Source: a virus
Length of the DNA stretch: 29,628 bases
Virus record (IMG/VR): IMGVR_UViG_3300042887_002089
Span: 1-29,628 of that record
Strand: one strand, 5' to 3'
The notes beneath the pieces are model-generated. The model did no database searches, had not been told where the DNA came from, and was given only the letters and a program-made list of their open reading frames with translations. Made by a program: the position numbers and the translations under genes. Shown here one piece after another: positions 19,489 to 29,513 of this stretch (position 1 is the stretch's first letter; every line of letters begins with the position of its first letter).

Positions 19489-19803
19489 ATGGACAGTACA
19501 GTGCGTTATATGCGCAATCTTGAGCTAAGGCCACCCGTAAATGGAGCTTGCATAGGTCACCCAACAGAGTGGTGGTTCCCTTCAAAAAGCGAGACATCCA
19601 TACAACGCCACTGGCGCATTAAGGCGGTAGAGGTATGCAATCAGTGTGATGTTCGCCAAGAGTGTCTTGACTACGCAATTGAAGCAGAAGAGATATTTGG
19701 CATTTGGGGAGGGTTGTCTGCGTCTGCGCGTGAAGCAGAAACTCGTAAGCGCCGTGAACTCGGAACCCTTATCGTTCACCCACGTGTGATTAAAATATTA
19801 TGA
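19489..19803 (+). CDS. WhiB-family transcription regulator
   Basis: A 104-residue protein with the four iron-sulfur cysteines in the WhiB arrangement (C21, C50, C53, C59; CxxCx5C) and the signature GIWGG at 71-75, followed by basic residues (RKRRE) for DNA contact. WhiB proteins bind a [4Fe-4S] cluster and the primary sigma factor, and are confined to Actinobacteria and their phages, which gives the host clue. Start supported by AAGGGAAC. Four-base overlap (ATGA) with the primase gene. It may control the unusual promoter family in this genome, but that is untested. Confidence 0.93.
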   Translation: MDSTVRYMRNLELRPPVNGACIGHPTEWWFPSKSETSIQRHWRIKAVEVCNQCDVRQECLDYAIEAEEIFGIWGGLSASAREAETRKRRELGTLIVHPRVIKIL

Positions 19804-21590
19804 GTCAAGTATCTGGCTCGGTAGACAAAGTTCTTTCCCTACTGCAGGGCGTGCGTCAAACTGGCAGCAACCAGTGGATGGCTCGCTGTCCTTGCCGTAA
19901 TGACGACAGCAACCCTTCGCTTGCTATTGCACAGGGCGATGATGGTGCTGCACTTCTTCATTGTCATCGTGGTGTGTCTTGTTCGGTAGATGAGATATGC
20001 AAGTCGGTTGGGCTTTCTCCGCGCGAGTTGTTTAATGATTCCGACGAGTGGAAGCCATCTCCACATTATGAACAGCAGGCTTCGTCTCCATCTCCGGCAA
20101 AGAAGAAGATGGGCAAGAAAATAGAGAAGACTTACCCGTACTGTGACGAGGACGGCAATCTTCTCTATGAAAAGGTTCGTTTCCGCTTTGATGATGGCAG
20201 TAAGTCGTTTGCTAATCGTCAGCCAGACCCATCACGTCCAGGCGAATATGTGTGGAACTTGAAAGAGCCTGCTGTGCGTCGTGTCCTTTATCGTCTCGAC
20301 GACATCACTAAGGCGATTAAAAAGGGTGAGCCAGTATGGCTGGTAGAGGGTGAGAAAGACGCTGACACTCTTGCTGCTATGGGTATCCATGCAACGACAA
20401 TGGATGGTGGCGCAGGAAAGTGGGACCAGTCCTACACGGACACTCTTGCTGGTGCACACGTTGAAATCATTGCTGACAATGACGAGGTTGGTAAACAGCA
20501 CGCACTGAGTGTTTCAGAGAAGCTTCTTGCTGTTGGCTGTACCGGATGTACTATCTGGATTTCTAAATACGGTAAAGACATTACTGACCACTTAACATCA
20601 GGTCGCACATTCGACGACCTTGATTCGTATGAGTACTACGAGCGTCCAGAAGACTATCCAGAACTGGAGGTAGACGAAGGCGAAGCAAGCACCGAAGACA
20701 AACTCCTTGACCAAATAGCGGAAGTGTTCTCTAAAGACAAGTTGACGCTGACGCAAAAACTGAATCGTGCAACAATTCTTCTAGGTTCTGCTGACACCCG
20801 TGAGATAAGCAACCCAGGGCGTCTTGTTGTTTGGCAAGACTTTCTCCAGGAAGCTGAAGTCGATACCTACGACTGGGTTATCCCTGGCCTCCTAGAGAAG
20901 AGCGAACGCGTAATGGTTGTTGCTGCAGAAGGTGTTGGCAAGACAATGCTTGCACGTCAAGTGGCTATCTGTAGTGCTGCAGGACTGCATCCATTTACGT
21001 TTCAGAAGATGGAACCAATACGAACACTGACAATTGACCTTGAGAACCCTGAACGAATCATTCGCCGTACATCGCACAGTATTATGGCGCAAGCGATGCG
21101 TAAGTCTGGCGCACGAAGGGTAGACGCCCACTTGCTTTCGAAGCCCGCTGGTCTAGACCTATGTGACAGCAGGGACCGTATGTACATCGAGAGCGTGATT
21201 GAGCGCGTTCAACCACAACTCATTTGCATGGGTCCTATGTACAAGTCGTACGTTGATTCTGGTACCCGTACAAGTGAAGCCCTTGCTGTAGAAGTAGCAA
21301 AGTACCTAGACATGATTCGCGATGTGTATGGATGTGCCCTATGGCTTGAGCACCATGCCCCACTGGGAACCTCTATGTCTTCCCGTGACCTGCGTCCATT
21401 CGGTTCATCCGTGTGGTCTCGTTGGCCAGAGTTCGGCATTGCCCTAACTCCAGACCCCACCAACCTTGCTGGGTACGTTTACGATGTTGGACACTTCCGT
21501 GGAGCCCGTGACAAGCGCCCATGGCCGACCAAACTGGCACGAGGCACAGACTTGCCGTTTGTCGTACTAGAATATACAAAGATGGATTAA
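19800..21590 (+). CDS. Primase-helicase: zinc finger, TOPRIM and RepA-like ATPase
   Basis: A 596-residue multidomain replication protein. The N-terminus has a CHC2-like zinc region (CPC...HCHRGVSC, about residues 30-62). A TOPRIM domain follows with VEGEKDADTLAAMG (about 180) and ADNDEVGKQHA (about 225). The C-terminal third is a RecA/RepA-like ATPase with Walker A AAEGVGKT (about 374-381) and a TIDLENP Walker B region. This fits a phage primase with an associated helicase-like motor, or a plasmid RepA-like protein. Co-translated with WhiB by a four-base overlap. Confidence 0.88.
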   Translation: MSQVSGSVDKVLSLLQGVRQTGSNQWMARCPCRNDDSNPSLAIAQGDDGAALLHCHRGVSCSVDEICKSVGLSPRELFNDSDEWKPSPHYEQQASSPSPAKKKMGKKIEKTYPYCDEDGNLLYEKVRFRFDDGSKSFANRQPDPSRPGEYVWNLKEPAVRRVLYRLDDITKAIKKGEPVWLVEGEKDADTLAAMGIHATTMDGGAGKWDQSYTDTLAGAHVEIIADNDEVGKQHALSVSEKLLAVGCTGCTIWISKYGKDITDHLTSGRTFDDLDSYEYYERPEDYPELEVDEGEASTEDKLLDQIAEVFSKDKLTLTQKLNRATILLGSADTREISNPGRLVVWQDFLQEAEVDTYDWVIPGLLEKSERVMVVAAEGVGKTMLARQVAICSAAGLHPFTFQKMEPIRTLTIDLENPERIIRRTSHSIMAQAMRKSGARRVDAHLLSKPAGLDLCDSRDRMYIESVIERVQPQLICMGPMYKSYVDSGTRTSEALAVEVAKYLDMIRDVYGCALWLEHHAPLGTSMSSRDLRPFGSSVWSRWPEFGIALTPDPTNLAGYVYDVGHFRGARDKRPWPTKLARGTDLPFVVLEYTKMD

Positions 21591-21598
21591 GGTACGGC

Positions 21599-22225
21599 AT
21601 GGCCCAAAACACAAACAAAAGCTTGACACGCGAGTTCCTTGCAGAGAGGGACCTGCGTATATTTAAGATGCGCCAAGCCGGCATTCCAACGAGCGAAATA
21701 GCCAGAAGGTTCGGAGTTACGTCTAAAGCCGTGTCTTCTTCTGTGTCTAGACAACTAGAGAAGTTGAACCAGGAAGCCATACTGGCATACCCTGAGGTGC
21801 TCCGTATGGAGCTTGAGAGGCTCGATGCGCTGCAACAGGCTATCTGGCCTATGACACAGCACAGGAAGATATCCATGGACGATGGCAGCGAGGTTCAGGT
21901 AGAACCAGACCTCAAGGCCATACAGCAGGTTCTGTCAATCATGGACAGGCGCTCCAAGCTCCTCGGCATGGAGCAGAACAATGTGAATATTCAGATGGAT
22001 GTCTCTACCCGTACGCCGATAAGGGCAGCTCTTGCTGGCGCTGTACAGGTAAGCGTGGCAAACCAGTTCAGCCCTGAAGCAGAGGCAAAGAAGTTACTAG
22101 AATTGATGGGTAAGTCCGGAGTCATGCCAATGGACTATATTGAGTCAATACTTGGTGAGAAAAAAGAACTAAGTCCAATTCTGGACGCAGAAGTTATAGA
22201 AATAAACGAGGAATCAGATGAGTAA
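21599..22225 (+). CDS. Helix-turn-helix protein, possible small terminase-like
   Basis: A 208-residue protein. Residues about 27-55 (GIPTSEIARRFGVTSKAVSSSVSRQL) form a classic helix-turn-helix, followed by helical segments. HTH plus coiled-helical C-terminus is seen in small terminase subunits, but no large subunit is nearby, so a transcription or replication DNA-binding role is equally likely. It begins eight bases after the primase stop and overlaps the next gene by eight. Codon use is rich in AGA, AGG and ATA, matching the three tRNAs encoded at 23-25 kb. Confidence 0.75.
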   Translation: MAQNTNKSLTREFLAERDLRIFKMRQAGIPTSEIARRFGVTSKAVSSSVSRQLEKLNQEAILAYPEVLRMELERLDALQQAIWPMTQHRKISMDDGSEVQVEPDLKAIQQVLSIMDRRSKLLGMEQNNVNIQMDVSTRTPIRAALAGAVQVSVANQFSPEAEAKKLLELMGKSGVMPMDYIESILGEKKELSPILDAEVIEINEESDE

Positions 22226-22535
22226 CGAGCAGGAAGACAACATAGAAGCAGCCATGGCCAAGGTTGCAGAGAACCTAACGCTGACCCGTAAGGCAAATAC
22301 CGGCTCGGTACCAGGGGAACCGGCCCAAAAACAGGTGATGGTTCGTGCTTCAGAGATAGACCACGCTAGATGGAAGGAAGCGGCCGAAAAGTCCGGCATA
22401 TCCATGGCTGAGTTCATTCGTGACGCTGTGAATATTGCTGCCAAGAACGCTCTTGAGTGCGACCATCCTGTAGAGATGAGAAAGAGTTACCCGTGGTCTG
22501 AATTTTGCCTGAAGTGCAATAGTAGGCTCAAGTAA
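22218..22535 (+). CDS. Ribbon-helix-helix protein with C-terminal zinc knuckle
   Basis: A 105-residue protein. VMVRASEIDHARWKEAAEKS-GISMAEFIRDAV has the strand-helix-helix pattern of ribbon-helix-helix DNA-binding proteins. The C-terminus has C-x-H and, some 16 residues later, CLKC, a plausible zinc site. It overlaps the HTH gene and is followed two bases later by the next gene. Likely a DNA-binding regulator or nicking accessory protein. Confidence 0.75.
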   Translation: MSNEQEDNIEAAMAKVAENLTLTRKANTGSVPGEPAQKQVMVRASEIDHARWKEAAEKSGISMAEFIRDAVNIAAKNALECDHPVEMRKSYPWSEFCLKCNSRLK

Positions 22536-22537
22536 AT

Positions 22538-22774
22538 ATGAGGTACTTAAATTACAATGACTTCATTGCTGCAGTGTCTACCCGTGCTGACTACGTAAGA
22601 CGAGAGCACGACTGGCGTTACGGGCAGGCATTTTTCAATGTCTTGTTTGAGGAGATGCCAGAGATAGCAAACGAACTGCGCGCAACAAAGCTTGACCCTT
22701 TTCACAAGAACGCTATTGAGGCAGAGACGTACCAGCGTATCCGTGAACTGTACGAGACAAAGGCAATTAAGTGA
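22538..22774 (+). CDS. Hypothetical protein, 78 aa
   Basis: A small helical protein with YNDFIAAVSTRADYVRREHDWRYGQAFFNVL near the start, a pattern I associate with uncharacterised phage proteins. No metal or catalytic motif. Embedded in the operon between the RHH protein and thioredoxin, with a four-base GTGA overlap at its 3' end. Confidence 0.75.
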   Translation: MRYLNYNDFIAAVSTRADYVRREHDWRYGQAFFNVLFEEMPEIANELRATKLDPFHKNAIEAETYQRIRELYETKAIK

Positions 22775-23091
22775 GCAAAGAACTAAACGACCAGAACTTC
22801 GATTCCTTCTTGGGCTCTACAGACAAGTACGTACTTGTTGACGTGTGGGCTGAATGGTGTGGCCCGTGCTCTTTCTTCGGTCCAATCATTGAAGAGGTTG
22901 CAAACGAACATAAAGAACACATCGAAGTAGGGAAACTAGACGTAGACGCTTTCCCTCAGATTGCACAGAAATATAGCGTCATGAGCATCCCTACTGTTAT
23001 CATATTTGATAACGGTCGTGTTGTGGACAGAATCGTTGGCGCGTACCCCAAAGACAAGTTTGTAGAAAAGATAAAAAAATATCTTTCGTGA
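22771..23091 (+). CDS. Thioredoxin
   Basis: A 106-residue thioredoxin with the active site WCGPC (W29, C30, C33), the buried Asp before it (D24), and the cis-proline loop SIPTV (near residue 73). Length and motifs match canonical thioredoxin. It starts with GTG in a four-base overlap. Since the window also encodes a class II ribonucleotide reductase with a C-terminal CxxxxC, this thioredoxin is the likely reductant for it. Confidence 0.93.
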   Translation: MSKELNDQNFDSFLGSTDKYVLVDVWAEWCGPCSFFGPIIEEVANEHKEHIEVGKLDVDAFPQIAQKYSVMSIPTVIIFDNGRVVDRIVGAYPKDKFVEKIKKYLS

Positions 23092-23120
23092 TTGCTTTCT
23101 GCGTTTAGGCGCGTTAGTAT
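23092..23120 (+). promoter_or_regulatory. Leaderless promoter of the 23127 gene
   Basis: TTGCTT (23092-23097), 17 bases, TAGTAT (23115-23120), six bases, ATG at 23127. It may also transcribe the tRNA gene that starts right after the ORF. Confidence 0.65.
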
Positions 23121-23126
23121 TTCAGC

Positions 23127-23348
23127 ATGTCAGTTGACGATGCATCTAGTGATGGCGTAAGGCACACATTTGGACCCGTGGCTCCCTACAACACCCGTCC
23201 CCTCACAGTAGAGTCCGCAATAGTGTCAATCACTGCATGCAACAGGACAAAAGAAGCGCATGGTGGGACAATCCCATTTGATTGGAATATTGTTCTTACT
23301 TCTGAGCTAATGCTAGACGTCCTTAGACGCATAGTCAAATTCTCATAA
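23127..23348 (+). CDS. Hypothetical protein, 73 aa
   Basis: A small protein of unknown function. It has no ribosome-binding site and a promoter ends six bases before its ATG, so leaderless translation is likely. Its stop codon is immediately followed by the first base of tRNA-Arg(TCT), so processing of the tRNA would remove it from the mRNA. Confidence 0.65.
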   Translation: MSVDDASSDGVRHTFGPVAPYNTRPLTVESAIVSITACNRTKEAHGGTIPFDWNIVLTSELMLDVLRRIVKFS

Positions 23349-23422
23349 GCCCTGATAGCTCAATCGGATAGAGCAACAGACTTCTAATCTGTAGGTTGTA
23401 GGTTCGATTCCTACTCAGGGCG
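23349..23422 (+). tRNA. tRNA-Arg (anticodon TCT)
   Basis: Cloverleaf: acceptor GCCCTGA/TCAGGGC, D arm AGCTC...GAGC, anticodon stem ACAGA/TCTGT with loop CTTCTAA (anticodon TCT), T arm with GGTTCGATTCC, discriminator G. CCA is not encoded. Decodes AGA. Confidence 0.95.
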
Positions 23423-23448
23423 CTAAACCGAAAGAACAGGAAAAACAA

Positions 23449-23661
23449 ATGAAACTTACACATAGTCAAGCACAGCAGTACGTAGGAAAGTACGTAAACA
23501 TCAAGACAGATTACTGGAATTTTATTGACGAGCGAGTCATTAAAGTTAGTGAACACGATGTTGTCACCGAGTATCATCACTGGCTTAAAACTCCAGAAGA
23601 CGGCATTCTTCGGGAAAATTGGATAGATATTTCTCGTATTGAATCAATCGAAGAGGCATAA
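23449..23661 (+). CDS. Hypothetical protein, 70 aa
   Basis: A small charged protein beginning MKLTHSQAQQYVGKYVNIKTDYWNF with a strand-rich middle, possibly an SH3-like small barrel. The ribosome-binding site is the AACAGGAAAAACAA just upstream. No family recognised. Confidence 0.7.
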   Translation: MKLTHSQAQQYVGKYVNIKTDYWNFIDERVIKVSEHDVVTEYHHWLKTPEDGILRENWIDISRIESIEEA

Positions 23662-23675
23662 AAGTTTTTTGACTA

Positions 23676-24173
23676 ATGAAAAAACTAAATGGAAACCCAA
23701 AAGGTGAGCTCGCATCATGGTTGCGCCAAAACGAAGACATACCAGGCGTTTCTGAAGCTTTGGCTAAATACAAAAAGAAATTCAACTTTAGCGATGACGA
23801 GTTTAAACATGCTTCCTCAATCAGGGAGATGGCCGAAATAAAAATGCAGCGCAACTATGGGTTTGTTAAACCAAAGCCCGGTCTCTATTACAAAGAGAGC
23901 TCACGAATCGTTTACCGCGTAGAGAAGAATGGCAATAGCTGTTCTTGGCGTCCTGCTACCCGTGACTGGTGGTCAAAGAGCGGTGACATGGTAAAACTCA
24001 TGACCGATTACGGCATGGGTAAAACTGTCCTTCTTACGCAAGAGCTGGCGTCAAGGCTCGGATTGGAAGCTGGAATGTGCGTTGCATGCGGCAAAGCCTT
24101 GACCACAGCAAAAAGCAAAGAGCTAGGCATTGGGCCGACTTGTCTCAAATCAATTACTCAAACACATGACTAA
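23676..24173 (+). CDS. Protein with C-terminal DUF6011-like zinc motif
   Basis: A 165-residue basic protein. The C-terminus CVACGKALTTAKSKELGIGP-TC has the pattern (CxxCgr-L-S--GiGp-C) I recall for DUF6011, a small zinc-binding module frequent in actinophages. The N-terminus is helical and basic. No ribosome-binding site is obvious; it starts 14 bases after the previous stop and ends six bases before tRNA-CAT. Confidence 0.75.
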   Translation: MKKLNGNPKGELASWLRQNEDIPGVSEALAKYKKKFNFSDDEFKHASSIREMAEIKMQRNYGFVKPKPGLYYKESSRIVYRVEKNGNSCSWRPATRDWWSKSGDMVKLMTDYGMGKTVLLTQELASRLGLEAGMCVACGKALTTAKSKELGIGPTCLKSITQTHD

Positions 24174-24179
24174 ATACAG

Positions 24180-24253
24180 GCCCCTATAGCTCAGTTGGTT
24201 AGAGCAGGGGACTCATAATCCCTTGGCCGCAGGTTCAAGTCCTGCTGGGGGCA
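24180..24253 (+). tRNA. tRNA with CAT anticodon (Met or lysidine-type Ile)
   Basis: Acceptor GCCCCTA/TGGGGGC, anticodon stem GGGGA/TCCCT with loop CTCATAA, T arm with GGTTCAAGTCC, discriminator A. The gene could be elongator Met or Ile2 (CAT modified to read ATA); its anticodon region CTCATAATC-CTTGG resembles tRNA-Ile2, and genes here use ATA often, so I favour Ile2. Confidence 0.9.
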
Positions 24254-24261
24254 CTAAAAAG

Positions 24262-24290
24262 TAGACAAAAACAAAAAGGACTGGTACGAT
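24262..24290 (+). promoter_or_regulatory. Leaderless promoter of the 24297 gene
   Basis: TAGACA (24262-24267), 17 bases, TACGAT (24285-24290), then ACCCGT and the ATG at 24297. Confidence 0.6.
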
Positions 24291-24296
24291 ACCCGT

Positions 24297-24446
24297 ATGA
24301 TTACACTTCAGTTACATCGCAAGAAAAAGATGGACATCATTGCTCACTCGTTGACCAAGTCCGGCATCCCTATTTGGAGCGGCATACCAGAACTCATCGT
24401 CAAGGACCTCAAAGATGCTGGTTATGTCATAAAGAAGAAGAAATGA
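24297..24446 (+). CDS. Small basic protein, 49 aa
   Basis: A 49-residue protein, Lys-rich at both ends (LHRKKKMDI..., ...VIKKKK). A GIPIWSGIPELIVKDLKDAGY segment looks like a small helical hairpin. No ribosome-binding site; promoter ends six bases before ATG. It overlaps the next gene by four bases (ATGA). Confidence 0.6.
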   Translation: MITLQLHRKKKMDIIAHSLTKSGIPIWSGIPELIVKDLKDAGYVIKKKK

Positions 24447-24643
24447 CGCGGCAGAATTCACGCCCGGCGAAAGAAAAGAAAAACAAACGGCGATACGACC
24501 CCAGGACGAGCGATATACGTCCGAAAGCCGGTCCAGTAACTATACGTAAAGCAGACGGAACGACGGAACGACAACCGGCTAAACCTGGAACAAAATACGT
24601 AGATAAACCATACTCTTCTCCGCGTCCTAAAAACGTATCCTAA
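24443..24643 (+). CDS. Small basic disordered protein, 66 aa
   Basis: A Lys/Arg/Pro-rich, low-complexity protein with no hydrophobic core, probably disordered and possibly nucleic-acid binding. I start it at the ATG overlapping the previous stop. Ends four bases before tRNA-Arg(CCT). Confidence 0.6.
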   Translation: MTRQNSRPAKEKKNKRRYDPRTSDIRPKAGPVTIRKADGTTERQPAKPGTKYVDKPYSSPRPKNVS

Positions 24644-24647
24644 TCAG

Positions 24648-24720
24648 GCTCTCGTAGCTCAGCGGATAGAGCAACAGTTTCCTAAACTGTTGGCCGTAGG
24701 TTCGAGTCCTACCGAGAGCG
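24648..24720 (+). tRNA. tRNA-Arg (anticodon CCT)
   Basis: Acceptor GCTCTCG/CGAGAGC, anticodon stem ACAGT/ACTGT with loop TTCCTAA (anticodon CCT), T arm with GGTTCGAGTCC, discriminator G. Decodes AGG. Confidence 0.95.
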
Positions 24721-24743
24721 CCACCTACAACAGAAAGACACCC

Positions 24744-24824
24744 ATGACAGAAATGTTAAGCATCTCTATACTCGTGTTCTCCGTGTGGTACTGCGGAGTA
24801 CTGACTGGGCAAAAATGGAAATAG
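24744..24824 (+). CDS. Small membrane peptide, 26 aa
   Basis: MTEMLSISILVFSVWYCGVL then TGQKWK: one hydrophobic segment with a positively charged end, a plausible single-span peptide with a cytoplasmic C-terminus. A purine tract (AGAAAGA) precedes the ATG. Its end overlaps the start of the next ORF by 10 bases. Different in sequence from the 16-residue family. Modest confidence. Confidence 0.45.
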   Translation: MTEMLSISILVFSVWYCGVLTGQKWK

Positions 24825-25009
24825 AACTTGAAGACCTTGTGACTCTTCGCTGCTGTCGCGATTGGCCCATTCATGCATACGCAGTGTACGGTCAGCAAAT
24901 TGGTCGATGTGGCATATGCAACAACAGACCATCTGTTGTATGGGAGATTTACCCAGAGGAGAAGTATGCCCGTAACCAAGCGGGCTACACCCCTCCTCTT
25001 GAGGTTTAA
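24815..25009 (+). CDS. Small cysteine-rich protein, 64 aa
   Basis: Contains RCC near the N-terminus and RCGICNN further on, so a small CC...CxxC zinc site is possible. I use the ATG that overlaps the end of the upstream membrane peptide. Its stop overlaps, convergently, the stop of the ribonucleotide reductase gene. Function unknown. Confidence 0.6.
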   Translation: MEIELEDLVTLRCCRDWPIHAYAVYGQQIGRCGICNNRPSVVWEIYPEEKYARNQAGYTPPLEV

Positions 25010-26931
25010 CGTACTGGACAGGCTCCTGTAGAGCAGTCATCCAGGTCCAACATGCCACCCGTGGCTGCCTGTAGAGGAATTGTGAAGTCAATCTTTGACA
25101 CGCTCTTCTCGTACTGCTCTTTGGTGATTTCCTCGTATGGAGGAAGTGGGAAGTTGTGGTCAGCATGAAGCAAGAACGACACGCTCTTTACGCTTGAGTC
25201 GTAGTTATCCGTGAGCCATGCCTTGATAGATGGAAGCTCTTCCTTGCGGTAGTACACAGTTACAGAGACGGCGTTGTCAGCCCACTCTGTCTGCATCTTC
25301 TTGACCCACTCAAGCTGCTGTATTGCTGTCATCTCAGAGGCCAGTACTGAACCCGTAGGTGATTGGCAAGGGAACTCAACAACGTAACGAGTGTGGTCTT
25401 CACGTCCATCAATGCCAATATCCCACTGAACCTTGTATCCACGCTTGCGACATGCGTCTACAAGTGCGTCTGCTGCACCAAAGCGAACACGACGAGTGTA
25501 GTAAGGAGCGAACGCAGGGTGGATGCCAGGTGTTACGCCTGGGAGAAGCGACAGTGTTCCGGATGGTTGAACTGTCGTGAGGCGAACAGATGTAGGGAAC
25601 CCGTGTTCCTTTGAGTATTCCTTGTCCAGTGCTTCTAGCTTCTTGTATGCAGGTGACAACCATGACACCTGCTCCTCTGTGCATTGGAGGATACCCGTGA
25701 TGCTTTGGCCAAGACGTGCGTTTTTGCGAACGATGTCTGTGGTTTTGTCGTATGGGTAGTTCATGCGTGTAATGCTCTTCTGCACCATGTACAGAAGCTC
25801 TGATACTTCACAGAACTGCTCGTATGACTCGATGTTCGGCAGGAACAAGGTTGACAGGTTGCATGACTCGCCATCACCAAGACCAATCTCGGCACATGGG
25901 TTAAAGCCTTCGATGGTGTTGTCCACCTTGCGCTCACCAAGACGACCATATGTGCGAGCTAGGCGACGGTTGACGAGACCATATGGCTCTCCTGAACCAT
26001 CGTACCCCTTCCACAGTTCTGGAAGAATCTCATCAAAGTGGTCAGCATAGATACTGTTGTTTGAGTTAGCTCTGTATGCAGGAACGTTACCCGTGGACCA
26101 ATTCTTCGCACGAATGAAAAGAACATCATCAGGGTCGCCAATAGCAATCTGTGCGGAGCGGCGTGAAGAGCCAGATACTACGATTTTTCCGATGATGTTA
26201 CATATGTCAAGCACATCAATGCTGCGAAGCTTCTTGCCTTCTCGGTTCTTCATGACCTTGCAGATGTCTTCTATGCCATCAATCAGTGCGCCTGGTCCGG
26301 ATGCTGTTCCTCCGAACGTCTTGAGTGGTGCACCAAACTCACGTACCAAGATGGTGGAGTACGAGAAAGACTTACCCGTGTCGAAATATGACTTCAACAC
26401 GCTGTGCAAAAGACGACGCCAACCAGTTCGTGAGTCGGGAACAATAATGTCTGCGTCGTTAGAGCGTTCGTGTGTGATTGTCACGTTTGGCTTTATCTTT
26501 GGAAGCTCATGTATCTTTGAGCGTTCGACAGAGAAGCCAACACCTCCACCAAGCATGAGGTAGTCAAAGAGAAGCTCAAAGTCTTCTACTGATTCGATGT
26601 TTGTGAAATAGCAGTTGTTAAGTGATGTGCCGCTGAACTGCTTAACCAGAGGTGTGCCTAGTTGCCACAGTGCACGACCTGAGAGTGAGCAGCGTAGGTA
26701 GAACATGTGGTCAAACAGTTGTTCTGCTTGGGGCTGTGATAGTGGTGCACCAATCTCAATAGCTCCATCAATAGCCCGTACGATGGTTTCAATCCACGTC
26801 TCATTGCGATTAAGGCCTGCTACTGGGCGGCTGTAGGTGCGAAGGTAAACAACCTCTCCTAATCCACCAAACCCCCAAGGTACTTGCTTATTTTCGTAAG
26901 AGGAGATGAATTCTGGAGTAAAGATTGACAT
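25006..26931 (-). CDS. Class II (adenosylcobalamin-dependent) ribonucleotide reductase
   Basis: A 641-residue protein reducing ribonucleotides to deoxyribonucleotides for phage DNA synthesis. Early SGRALWQLGT and SLNNCYFTN (near 108), GGGVGFSVERSKI, the NPCAEIGLGDGESCNLST active-site loop (near 345), TVQPSGTLSLLPGVTPG, and the C-terminal redox pair C633/C638 (CSTGAC) are the landmarks of monomeric B12-dependent RTPR-type enzymes. Somewhat shorter than bacterial RTPR (about 740), as usual in phages. No class I small subunit is present. The promoter at 26961-26989 and AGGAAAG leader precede it. Confidence 0.93.
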   Translation of the reverse strand: MSIFTPEFISSYENKQVPWGFGGLGEVVYLRTYSRPVAGLNRNETWIETIVRAIDGAIEIGAPLSQPQAEQLFDHMFYLRCSLSGRALWQLGTPLVKQFSGTSLNNCYFTNIESVEDFELLFDYLMLGGGVGFSVERSKIHELPKIKPNVTITHERSNDADIIVPDSRTGWRRLLHSVLKSYFDTGKSFSYSTILVREFGAPLKTFGGTASGPGALIDGIEDICKVMKNREGKKLRSIDVLDICNIIGKIVVSGSSRRSAQIAIGDPDDVLFIRAKNWSTGNVPAYRANSNNSIYADHFDEILPELWKGYDGSGEPYGLVNRRLARTYGRLGERKVDNTIEGFNPCAEIGLGDGESCNLSTLFLPNIESYEQFCEVSELLYMVQKSITRMNYPYDKTTDIVRKNARLGQSITGILQCTEEQVSWLSPAYKKLEALDKEYSKEHGFPTSVRLTTVQPSGTLSLLPGVTPGIHPAFAPYYTRRVRFGAADALVDACRKRGYKVQWDIGIDGREDHTRYVVEFPCQSPTGSVLASEMTAIQQLEWVKKMQTEWADNAVSVTVYYRKEELPSIKAWLTDNYDSSVKSVSFLLHADHNFPLPPYEEITKEQYEKSVSKIDFTIPLQAATGGMLDLDDCSTGACPVR

Positions 26932-26960
26932 AGCAACAGCTTTCCTGTAGGAGTGGGGAA

Positions 26961-26989
26961 AGACTAGTGTACATCAGCACATTGGTCAA
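26961..26989 (-). promoter_or_regulatory. Promoter of the ribonucleotide reductase
   Basis: On the minus strand: TTGACC (26984-26989), 17 bases, TAGTCT (26961-26966). Confidence 0.65.
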
Positions 26990-26996
26990 ATGCAGT

Positions 26997-27299
26997 CTAG
27001 GAAATTCCTAACTCTTGTGCTTTCTCGAGAGTTATATAACTGCCTTTGTGCACGGTGATTACTGTTGTTTTAGTAAATGGAGTTATCTGTCTGTCTTCGT
27101 AAACATCTTCTTCTACAAGAATCATTTGTGAATCTTTTAATGTTTCTAAAACACTGTCAGTAAATGCAATATGTGTAGGTCGCGCTGTATCTGTTGTGCA
27201 GTCACCCGTGGGGTGTTGACAGACAGGACATGTTTGTCTATCGGCTCTGATGATTGGTATTCCACCTAGAACTACGTCATCGTTACGGAATGCGCTCAT
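26997..27299 (-). CDS. Hypothetical protein with CxxC zinc motif
   Basis: A 100-residue protein. CPVCQHPTGDC (about residues 24-34) is a zinc-knuckle-like segment; the C-terminal half has a basic strand-rich region ending in EKAQELG. No ribosome-binding site; TAAAAT lies six bases before the ATG. A 7-bp inverted repeat operator candidate overlaps this promoter (27311-27330). Function unknown. Confidence 0.75.
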   Translation of the reverse strand: MSAFRNDDVVLGGIPIIRADRQTCPVCQHPTGDCTTDTARPTHIAFTDSVLETLKDSQMILVEEDVYEDRQITPFTKTTVITVHKGSYITLEKAQELGIS

Positions 27300-27305
27300 T
27301 GCTCT

Positions 27306-27330
27306 ATTTTACAGCACTTGACTGTGCTGT
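27306..27330 (-). promoter_or_regulatory. Leaderless -10 with overlapping palindromic operator
   Basis: ACAGCAC (27311-27317), six bases, GTGCTGT (27324-27330), a perfect inverted repeat directly upstream of the -10 TAAAAT (27306-27311 on the minus strand), which is six bases from the ATG at 27299. The -35 is weak, so repression or activation at this palindrome is plausible. Confidence 0.55.
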
Positions 27331-27338
27331 TGCAGTTG

Positions 27339-27686
27339 TTATCGCTTGAACCAGGCGAGGAAGCGCTTACGTAGTGCTGCTGGCTTTACGTCGTTAGCGT
27401 AGATGACCTTGCCATTCACTGTTGCAGAGATGTTCGCAGTTGAGGTGGATGAAGCGGTATTGAATGCTTCCCAAATCTTTTCTGCTGACTCAACTACATT
27501 CTGTACGCTGTCTGTGTTACCCGTGGCTGTTTTGGCCGCCTTCTTGGCTACTGACTTCTTGACAGAAGGTTTCTTAGCGGAAGGCTTCTTAGCAGGGGTC
27601 TTCTTGGCAACAGCCTTCTTAGCGACAGCCTTCTTAGGAGCTGCCTTCTTAGCGGTTGTCTTCTTTGGTGTTGGTTTGTTTGCCAT
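27339..27686 (-). CDS. Histone H1-like Lys/Ala/Pro-rich protein
   Basis: A 115-residue protein. Residues about 3-58 are degenerate repeats of AKKP/KKAVAKK type, as in the tails of histone H1 and the C-terminus of mycobacterial HupB; the rest is a small Ala/Ser/Thr-rich domain ending LRKRFLAWFKR. It should bind DNA, perhaps for compaction or regulation. I start at MANKPTPKK; TAATCT seven bases upstream suggests a leaderless transcript. Divergent from the gene at 27747. Confidence 0.8.
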   Translation of the reverse strand: MANKPTPKKTTAKKAAPKKAVAKKAVAKKTPAKKPSAKKPSVKKSVAKKAAKTATGNTDSVQNVVESAEKIWEAFNTASSTSTANISATVNGKVIYANDVKPAALRKRFLAWFKR

Positions 27687-27746
27687 GCTTGACAGATTAG
27701 TCCACCTGATTCCCTGGTGGCGGAAGTAGTCGTGTAGCTTGGAGTG

Positions 27747-28376
27747 ATGGGAGAAGCCAAATATCCACATCGTCTTGACAAGCTAGCCATCTCTATGATG
27801 TCGGCTATGAATGCCAAAGAGCAGGCTGTCAAGAAATACGGCATAGGCGAAGAGATACCCCTCAGTATTATCTGCTGGTCAGGGGACAAGATAAGTCTCG
27901 TATTGTCAGCATCTTGGGAAGTACAGAAAAGCGCGCCTTCTGACAGATTCGGCAAGGTTAATGATGCACTGTGTATAGCAAGGAAGGGATGGGGTATCGA
28001 CGCCTTCACTCTCATTGCTGAGGGGTTCTGCTCTACTGACCCCTCTGTTACTGATGGCATGGACCTGAGAGAGGCGTTCATCAAGCCTGGTATGCCAGTG
28101 TCTGAGTGTATTGCCATCACACACACAGAGCCAGAAGAGGTGACCTTCATAGCAAAGCCATTCTCACTCACGTATCCAAAGAGGGTTGTATGGGAAGAGG
28201 AGCTGTACTTTCCTGGACAAACAAGGATACGTGGTCAAGACTCTATGTATCCAAGACTAATGAGCAAGGTACTCACTGATGTGGAGTATGAATTACCACC
28301 CGTGGACGAAAATGCGTATTACGAAGAGTTGAGCGAGGGCCTAGCAGAGCATGGCTTTGCATGCCAATGGCTATGA
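27747..28376 (+). CDS. Hypothetical protein, 209 aa
   Basis: A soluble protein not recognised. The first third (HRLDKLAISMMSAMNAKEQAVKKYG) is helical, the middle beta-rich (SWEVQKSAP, CIARKGWGIDAFTLIAEGF), and the C-terminus acidic. TAGCTT six bases before the ATG suggests a leaderless mRNA, divergent from the H1-like gene. Overlaps the next gene by four bases. Confidence 0.7.
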   Translation: MGEAKYPHRLDKLAISMMSAMNAKEQAVKKYGIGEEIPLSIICWSGDKISLVLSASWEVQKSAPSDRFGKVNDALCIARKGWGIDAFTLIAEGFCSTDPSVTDGMDLREAFIKPGMPVSECIAITHTEPEEVTFIAKPFSLTYPKRVVWEEELYFPGQTRIRGQDSMYPRLMSKVLTDVEYELPPVDENAYYEELSEGLAEHGFACQWL

Positions 28377-28606
28377 TGTGGTCGTGGATACTGAGCACAG
28401 TAGGCGTCATAGGGCTGTACCTAGTAGGCAGGAGGCATTGGTGGGGCTGGTGCATAGCCTTCATCAATGAGTGTCTGTGGTGCGTGTATGCGGTCTCTAC
28501 TAAGCAGTATGGGTTTATCTTGGGTGCTATGGCATATGGCGCTATACATGTAGTCAATGCCACTAAGTGGAGGGGTGAGTTACCCGTATCGCCCGTGGAC
28601 TCCTAG
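28373..28606 (+). CDS. Small multi-span membrane protein
   Basis: A 77-residue protein with two or three hydrophobic segments (about 3-19, 27-42, 48-65), Trp-rich. The pattern WGWCIAFINECLWCVYA-x-TKQYGF is reminiscent of half of a PnuC/SemiSWEET-like transporter, but the length is well short of PnuC; it could equally be a small phage membrane protein. I start at ATG 28373 (ATGA overlap with the previous stop); two other in-frame ATGs lie upstream. Confidence 0.6.
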   Translation: MMWSWILSTVGVIGLYLVGRRHWWGWCIAFINECLWCVYAVSTKQYGFILGAMAYGAIHVVNATKWRGELPVSPVDS

Positions 28607-29177: not shown

Positions 29178-29381
29178 TCTGATAGGCAGGTGAACAGGCA
29201 GGCTAATAACTAATTATTTATTGGCTACATAGGAATGAGAGTGGGGTCGGCTTGCAGTGTAAGTATCGGGGCTGTCGTGAACTTTCCGCTATCCGATGCG
29301 GGGAGGGGGGGAGCGTGCGGAATATTTTTAGCACCAGCATTCCTTGGATAGATTTATCCAAACCTGGTCTAGACTGACGTC

Positions 29382-29492
29382 ATGAACAAGATTCTTTCCT
29401 TTTCAATCATTGCCGGTTGCGTTTTGCTTGTTGCCTATCTAGTGCGCAAGCTTACCCCTAAAAAATACTGGAAAGATACCTATTTCAGATAA
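29382..29492 (+). CDS. Small single-span membrane protein, 36 aa
   Basis: MNKILSFSIIAGCVLLVAYL then a positively charged tail (VRKLTPKKYWKDTYFR): one membrane segment with a basic C-terminus, expected inside. A TAGACT -10 (29370-29375) lies six bases before the ATG, so it would be leaderless; the -35 (TTGGAT) spacing of 20 is long. Its function is unknown. Confidence 0.6.
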   Translation: MNKILSFSIIAGCVLLVAYLVRKLTPKKYWKDTYFR

Positions 29493-29513
29493 ATTTATCC
29501 GATAAAAAAGGGC

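Follow-up and report, generated by a model that had tools for sequence, protein, structure and literature searches.

The stretch of DNA analysed here (the window) is the virus record IMGVR_UViG_3300042887_002089, a genome fragment of 29,628 bases with genes for a WhiB protein, a primase-helicase, thioredoxin, a class II ribonucleotide reductase (NrdJ), and a PAPS-reductase-like protein. The plus strand of positions 19533–28598 carries a polar array of the hexamer ACCCGT, and a conserved non-coding element, named E, is located to the right of it at 29250–29365 (plus strand; match to a profile hidden Markov model at 29200–29375). The array extends over the primase-helicase gene (Toprim/AAA_25; 19800–21590, plus strand), the gene of a helix-turn-helix (HTH) protein, three tRNA genes (Arg-TCT at 23349, Met-CAT at 24180, and Arg-CCT at 24648), and the reductase gene nrdJ (25006–26931, minus strand), in which the sites are on the template strand.

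A preliminary description of the window reported 22 copies of ACCCGT on the plus strand and none on the minus strand between positions 19533 and 28587. A recount reproduced every position, and ACGGGT is absent from this segment. The leftmost site of the dense array is at 19533–19538. Plus-strand sites follow in the primase-helicase gene (20134–20139, 20796–20801, and 21264–21269), in the HTH gene (22007–22012), at 22284–22289, 22489–22494, and 22580–22585, in intergenic DNA (23174–23179 and 23193–23198), and at 23958–23963 and 24291–24296. Within nrdJ, one site is at 25057–25062, and the others correspond to alignment positions 1575 (25351–25356), 1327 (25599–25604), 1233 (25693–25698), 837 (26089–26094), and 552 (26374–26379). 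To the right of the reductase gene are the sites at 27204–27209, 27519–27524, and 28298–28303, and the right edge of the array is formed by the tandem pair ACCCGT-ATC-GCCCGTGG with a period of 9 bp (28582–28598), which is also found in five relatives. The base after the hexamer is A or G at 21 of the 22 sites. Between 12 and 19.5 kb, the window contains no plus-strand and three minus-strand copies, whereas left of 12 kb the two strands are balanced, with six and five copies, respectively. These counts, too, agree with the preliminary description. If GCCCGTR is added, the array comprises 26 sites on the plus strand and one on the minus strand.

The two strands of the whole window together contain 36 copies of ACCCGT, compared to 11.2 ± 3.5 in dinucleotide shuffles, none of 100 of which reached this number. 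Eighteen of the 22 array sites are inside genes, ten in plus-strand and eight in minus-strand genes. Synonymous codon shuffling within each of the 11 array genes, with the proteins and per-gene codon pools kept, gave 6.8 ± 1.5 plus-strand copies and a maximum of 13 in 2000 shuffles, compared to the 22 observed. The shuffling is conservative, because the codon pool already includes the codons of the sites themselves. Codon or amino-acid bias was rejected on the basis of this result together with the presence of sites in genes of both orientations, so that the earlier statement that codon choice cannot explain the array holds. Mutational strand skew was rejected as well, as the GC and TA skews at fourfold-degenerate sites reveal no strand-dependent shift at E.

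Local skew as strong as that of ACCCGT is common among coding words when phage genomes are taken singly, and such skew can follow gene direction. A pooled test was applied to the zone 0.5–9 kb left of E in 12 genomes, with skew demanded separately in plus-strand and minus-strand genes. The ratio of plus-strand to minus-strand copies of ACCCGT is 72:2 in plus-strand genes, 64:4 in minus-strand genes, and 41:7 between genes. The minimum z is 7.3 for ACCCGT; among words without overlap with the motif, the highest value is approximately 2.7, and outside this zone the top-scoring word of the genomes reaches 2–3. Equal skew of other hexamers, raised in the preliminary description as a possible objection, is thus common in single genomes, but ACCCGT stands alone when both gene directions are demanded. 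A change in the sign of the skew at an origin or packaging end had been considered there; no sign change was found elsewhere in the genome. A scan of five cultured phages for a comparable array returned no clear counterpart. The array is a real, selected, gene-independent DNA signal, and the proposal of a polar motif that ignores gene direction is upheld by the codon shuffles, the inverted genes described below, and the pooled skew. Its confinement to 10–20 kb on one side of E and its likeness to phage nick motifs had not been foreseen.

The long relatives of this uncultured virus are 105–174 kb in length. One of them, G002, encodes TerL, portal, tail sheath, baseplate, and major capsid proteins, and is of the myovirus type. 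The best phage matches of the primase-helicase, of an SNF2 helicase, and of the terminase (the last taken from G002) include many phages of Arthrobacter, Gordonia, and Brevibacterium, and therefore the host is probably actinobacterial. Searches for the host through NrdJ and through a tRNA did not find one. The best matches of the ribonucleotide reductase in cultured phages have at most 47% identity, and the cultured relatives are distant.

Pooled over sixteen loci, the motif is Y-R-CCCGT-R, with A strongly preferred over G as the purine of the first core position (Y-[A>>G]CCCGT-R). This change from A to G is the main one tolerated in the core (GCCCGT, 115:23); most other single-base variants are not enriched on the array strand. 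ACCCGT is preceded by C or T in 81% of cases and followed by G or A in 88%, and there is little information beyond these flanks. In whole contigs of the relatives, the motif is at background level except for one segment, on one strand.

Element E is approximately 120 bp long and has one strong profile match per genome. It is composed of a CGGGGCT..GAACTTTC block (CGGGRCT..AACTTT across members), a G-run, and a sigma70-like promoter reading rightward, the -10 region of which overlaps the palindrome GGATAGATTTATCC. Another palindrome, GGATAAATTTATCC (29485–29500 in the window), is found again at the promoters of small genes to the right of E and is apparently a shared operator of an early region. 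Just left of E in G008, G009, and G018, long low-complexity runs of GGGGTAGGGGT, GTGTGCGTG, and AAGGCACAAGGC surround the last array site and E.

In each of the 13 genomes analysed that bear the array, it is anchored one-sidedly at E, and the motif is conserved among diverged relatives. When these genomes are aligned on E, the density on the array strand is 1.8–2.5 sites/kb from 0 to -8 kb and 1.3 sites/kb from -8 to -10 kb. It continues at 0.5–0.75 sites/kb out to -20 kb and then falls to background. The minus strand inside the dense zone has 0–0.2 sites/kb, and right of E there are approximately 0.06 sites/kb on either strand. The right end of every array is approximately 0.3–1.1 kb before E, with one extra copy just past E in G007. 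The last sites before E in six members form the tandem pair RCCCGT-RTC-RCCCGT with a period of 9. Elsewhere, the pooled gaps between sites have a mean of 417 bp, with fewer short gaps than expected at random. Searches with the tandem edge pair matched mostly collagen-like repeats. A sister clade without the array carries the same E, and no convincing replacement motif was found in the array-free relatives G010, G011, L021, and L022.

The gene content of the array varies by lineage, which provides natural experiments. Whereas the array of the window covers the primase, the HTH protein, the tRNAs, and the reductase, that of G007–G009 covers an SNF2 helicase and a DUF932 protein, with primase and reductase outside. 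The reductase gene is inverted in G004, G018, and G019 and positioned just right of E. Six gene families within 10 kb left of E have 2.1 sites/kb on the array strand when they face with the array and 3.2 when they face against it. The other strand of the same families inside the array has 0.06–0.14 sites/kb, and outside the array they have approximately 0.1–0.2 sites/kb on either strand.

The reductase gene was compared among 20 array-embedded relatives with 73–92% nucleotide identity to the window. The sites at alignment positions 1233, 837, and 552 are kept as ACGGGT or ACGGGC in all 20, and these three synonymous sites rank first to third in conservation among 116 degenerate invariant dipeptides. 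In reductase relatives outside the array, the same Thr-Gly dipeptides are encoded by ACGGGT or ACGGGC in 0 of 11, 1 of 2, and 1 of 11 cases. The reductase sites of L078, L080, L082, and L095 are mostly at other codons, and therefore the sites turn over while the array persists. What is selected is the DNA sequence inside a zone, and neither proteins nor transcripts.

Among the gene clusters common to the array-bearing genomes and missing in array-free relatives, one, C11, stands out. Relative to the array, it is on the minus strand; it encodes a protein of 140–160 residues and is present in each of the 12 array-bearing genomes whose sequence continues beyond E. Its distance from E is 0.7–4 kb to the right, except in G004, G018, and G019, where it is within the array, 4 kb to the left of E; in G013 and G017 the gene is beside the array start. 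Distant homologues with 51–57% identity (L404, L405, and L410) also adjoin polar arrays. C11 is absent from the array-free G010 (89 kb) and G011 (66 kb), both of which are fragments. Neither the primase zinc domain nor a ParB-like gene tracks the presence of the array. The conserved residues of C11 are G-E, followed by EVKTDRYRNGRMVIE and SGINVTTAKWWVY, with the signature E..EVKTDRYRNG..IE. The predicted fold is alpha-beta-beta-beta, with a mean predicted local distance difference test (pLDDT) score of 86, and its weak fold matches include the PD-(D/E)XK nucleases D212, RecU, HinP1I, and I-Ssp6803I. C11 has no match in Pfam or PDB sequences and no strong Foldseek match in the PDB, and belongs to a PHROG without assigned function. 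The residues and strand order fit the PD-(D/E)XK nuclease family, which suggests that C11 is a candidate member. C11 is taken, with moderate confidence, as the candidate site-specific nickase.

The closest known kind of signal is the one-strand nick motif of the Pseudomonas phages tf and Rembedalsseter (PMC3517423, PMC11780129). In tf, the 14 nicks at TACT/RTGMC are confined to the top strand (PMC3517423), and a recount of TACTRTGMC as a positive control gave 14 top-strand and no bottom-strand copies. Genes in either direction contain tf sites, with sci13 and sci14 in minus-strand genes, and the spacing of the sites widens with distance from the left end. Rembedalsseter and 60 relatives (61 phages) have a one-strand motif that is mostly intragenic and concentrated towards one end, and the purpose of which has been termed enigmatic (PMC11780129). 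Like TACT/RTGMC and WACTRTGAC of these phages, the motif beside E is a short asymmetric word, strictly on one strand and enriched over chance, in and outside genes of either direction, with its strand set by the genome and not by gene direction, and conserved in a diverged phage group; it is concentrated on one side of E, as the known motifs are towards one genome end. The word itself is different, and there are approximately 25 sites per 10 kb compared to 13–14 over 45 kb. Furthermore, the array has a sharp edge at E, and it occurs in myoviruses of 105–174 kb, probably with actinobacterial hosts. The nicks of phiKMV are also sequence-specific and on one strand (recount of the motif, 3:0), but they are few, have another consensus, and do not form a localized array.

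It is possible, with a probability of about 0.4, that the YRCCCGTR array is a set of one-strand nick sites, with C11 as the candidate nickase and E near a DNA end. According to this preferred reading, YRCCCGTR would be the recognition site of a phage DNA enzyme acting on one strand, and the array would spread these sites across 10–20 kb beside the landmark E. The small PD-(D/E)XK-like C11 protein, encoded near E, would introduce site-specific nicks into one strand at these positions, comparable to those of tf, Rembedalsseter, phiKMV, and T5. By analogy with tf, E may be at or near a packaging or DNA-entry end, where the nicks may function in packaging, in recombination, or in the transfer of DNA into the cell. 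Contig breaks are more frequent near E than elsewhere: of approximately 30 contigs that contain the reductase gene and reach 2 kb beyond this gene, 18 end within the next 1.8 kb. The array qualifies well as a candidate for a new form of localized phage nick signal.

Several observations weigh against nicking by C11 at a DNA end. The motif sequence is unrelated to the known nick motifs, and the sites are 5–10 times denser. The best match of C11 to solved structures has a Z score of only 3.5, and no homologue is detectable in tf or phiKMV. Relatives of C11 in Pelagibacter phages are encoded between DNA polymerase and exonuclease genes, and the role of the family may be more general. The array-free comparison consists of two genomes, both fragments. 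The contig ends near E are not at one base, and the placement of a DNA end at E rests solely on their excess. Another tentative interpretation, held with less confidence, is that the array is a new kind of signal: one-sided, density-graded, polar, and anchored to a single non-coding element. During packaging, DNA entry, or replication, it would direct a phage-encoded nuclease or translocase, setting the place and direction of its work; genes that move into the zone would acquire sites.

The preliminary description had listed Chi-like, segregation or packaging, primase-start, and modification-linked sites as possible classes, and the explanations that survive are among them. Guidance similar to that by Chi, FtsK-orienting polar sequences (KOPS), or architecture-imparting sequences (AIMS) is rather unlikely, although the one-sided decaying profile ending at E and the independence of site polarity from gene direction would fit it. 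The polar sites would regulate a helicase-nuclease or translocase, of the host or the phage, for which a DNA end or resolution site at E would be the point of entry or the destination. Density and strand bias would rise towards E as those of AIMS, which are octamers, rise towards the replication terminus (PMC5993296), and the FtsK relative TraB of Streptomyces reads GACCCGGA (PMC5133688), which has ACCCG in common with the motif. AIMS, KOPS, and Chi are likewise polar short words with a density gradient towards a landmark (PMC5993296), but they are chromosomal and two-armed, whereas the array is viral, spans 10–20 kb, and has its gradient on one side only, with background right of E. The same E in the array-free sister clade also speaks against guidance. 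In most of 119 Actinomycetes genomes, YACCCGTR is not above a reversed-word control, and the word has no replichore polarity in eight small actinobacterial genomes. In the 119 Actinomycetes sampled, these chromosome scans give no support for a general actinobacterial Chi or KOPS, but the signal may be one that is read by the phage's own host.

Lagging-strand priming is less probable still. It would make E a replication origin from which the fork runs left, with the phage primase starting ACCCG or GCCCG on the template CGGGT/C. The virus encodes a T7-type primase-helicase, the T7 primase site is 5'-(G/T)2GTC-3' (PMC12839067), and T7 primers such as ACCC resemble the motif. Moreover, position 1 of the core is a purine after a pyrimidine, as at initiation sites, and E contains a promoter and a G-run. 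However, the template base after GT is a purine (CGGGT-R, CGGGC-R) and not the C of T7, there is no mirror array right of E, the fourfold-site skew is unchanged at E, and the primase zinc domain does not separate array-bearing from array-free phages. Priming sites would also be required genome-wide. Strand bias due to Type III restriction is highly improbable, despite the precedent of the EcoP15I sites of T7, all copies of which have one orientation (PMC12707154). Those sites are genome-wide, without localization or anchoring element, whereas both orientations of ACCCGT occur outside the array. The word is approximately tenfold enriched and localized, not merely depleted in one orientation, and escape from restriction needs neither such enrichment nor confinement to 10 kb beside E nor conserved positions. 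Asymmetric repressor sites or another transcription-direction element can hardly account for the array either. The stoperators of cluster A mycobacteriophages are asymmetric, numerous in each phage genome, and mostly in one orientation relative to transcription (PMC6550527). The orientation of the array does not follow transcription, and in the same genes the sites are on the coding strand or on the template strand, depending on the direction in which the gene faces in the array.

Other repeats occur in these genomes. Between approximately 2000 and 12500, the window contains many intergenic inverted repeats AGCCCCG(T)-N12-18-(A)CGGGGCT, which form terminator-like hairpins between short genes, and such repeats are also found 17–30 kb left of E in relatives. 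In G004 (locus L122, approximately 8.5–12.5 kb), as well as in G018 and G019, there are approximately 19 AG[CT]CCCG units spaced approximately 160 bp apart; they are not tRNAs and are possibly tandem small RNAs or promoter-terminator units. The structural module of G002 includes giant genes of 2459 and 3462 codons (38628–46007 and 50408–60796), and G002 also has a tryptophan-halogenase-like gene (L137:4422–5903).

That some phage genomes are nicked has been known for 50 years, and the enzyme and purpose are unsettled (PMC11780129). This phage family offers an example that is dense, conserved, and sharply delimited, with a fixed landmark and an associated candidate nuclease, in which array-free sister phages and the same genes inside and outside the array, in either orientation, serve as controls. 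With the link to a nuclease and with relatives that have no array, it becomes possible to test why phages nick their DNA. If the array were a guidance or priming signal instead, it would be the first one-sided gradient of that sort in a phage known to us. As the possible signal of a nicking enzyme, the array may offer a way into the purpose of nicked phage genomes.

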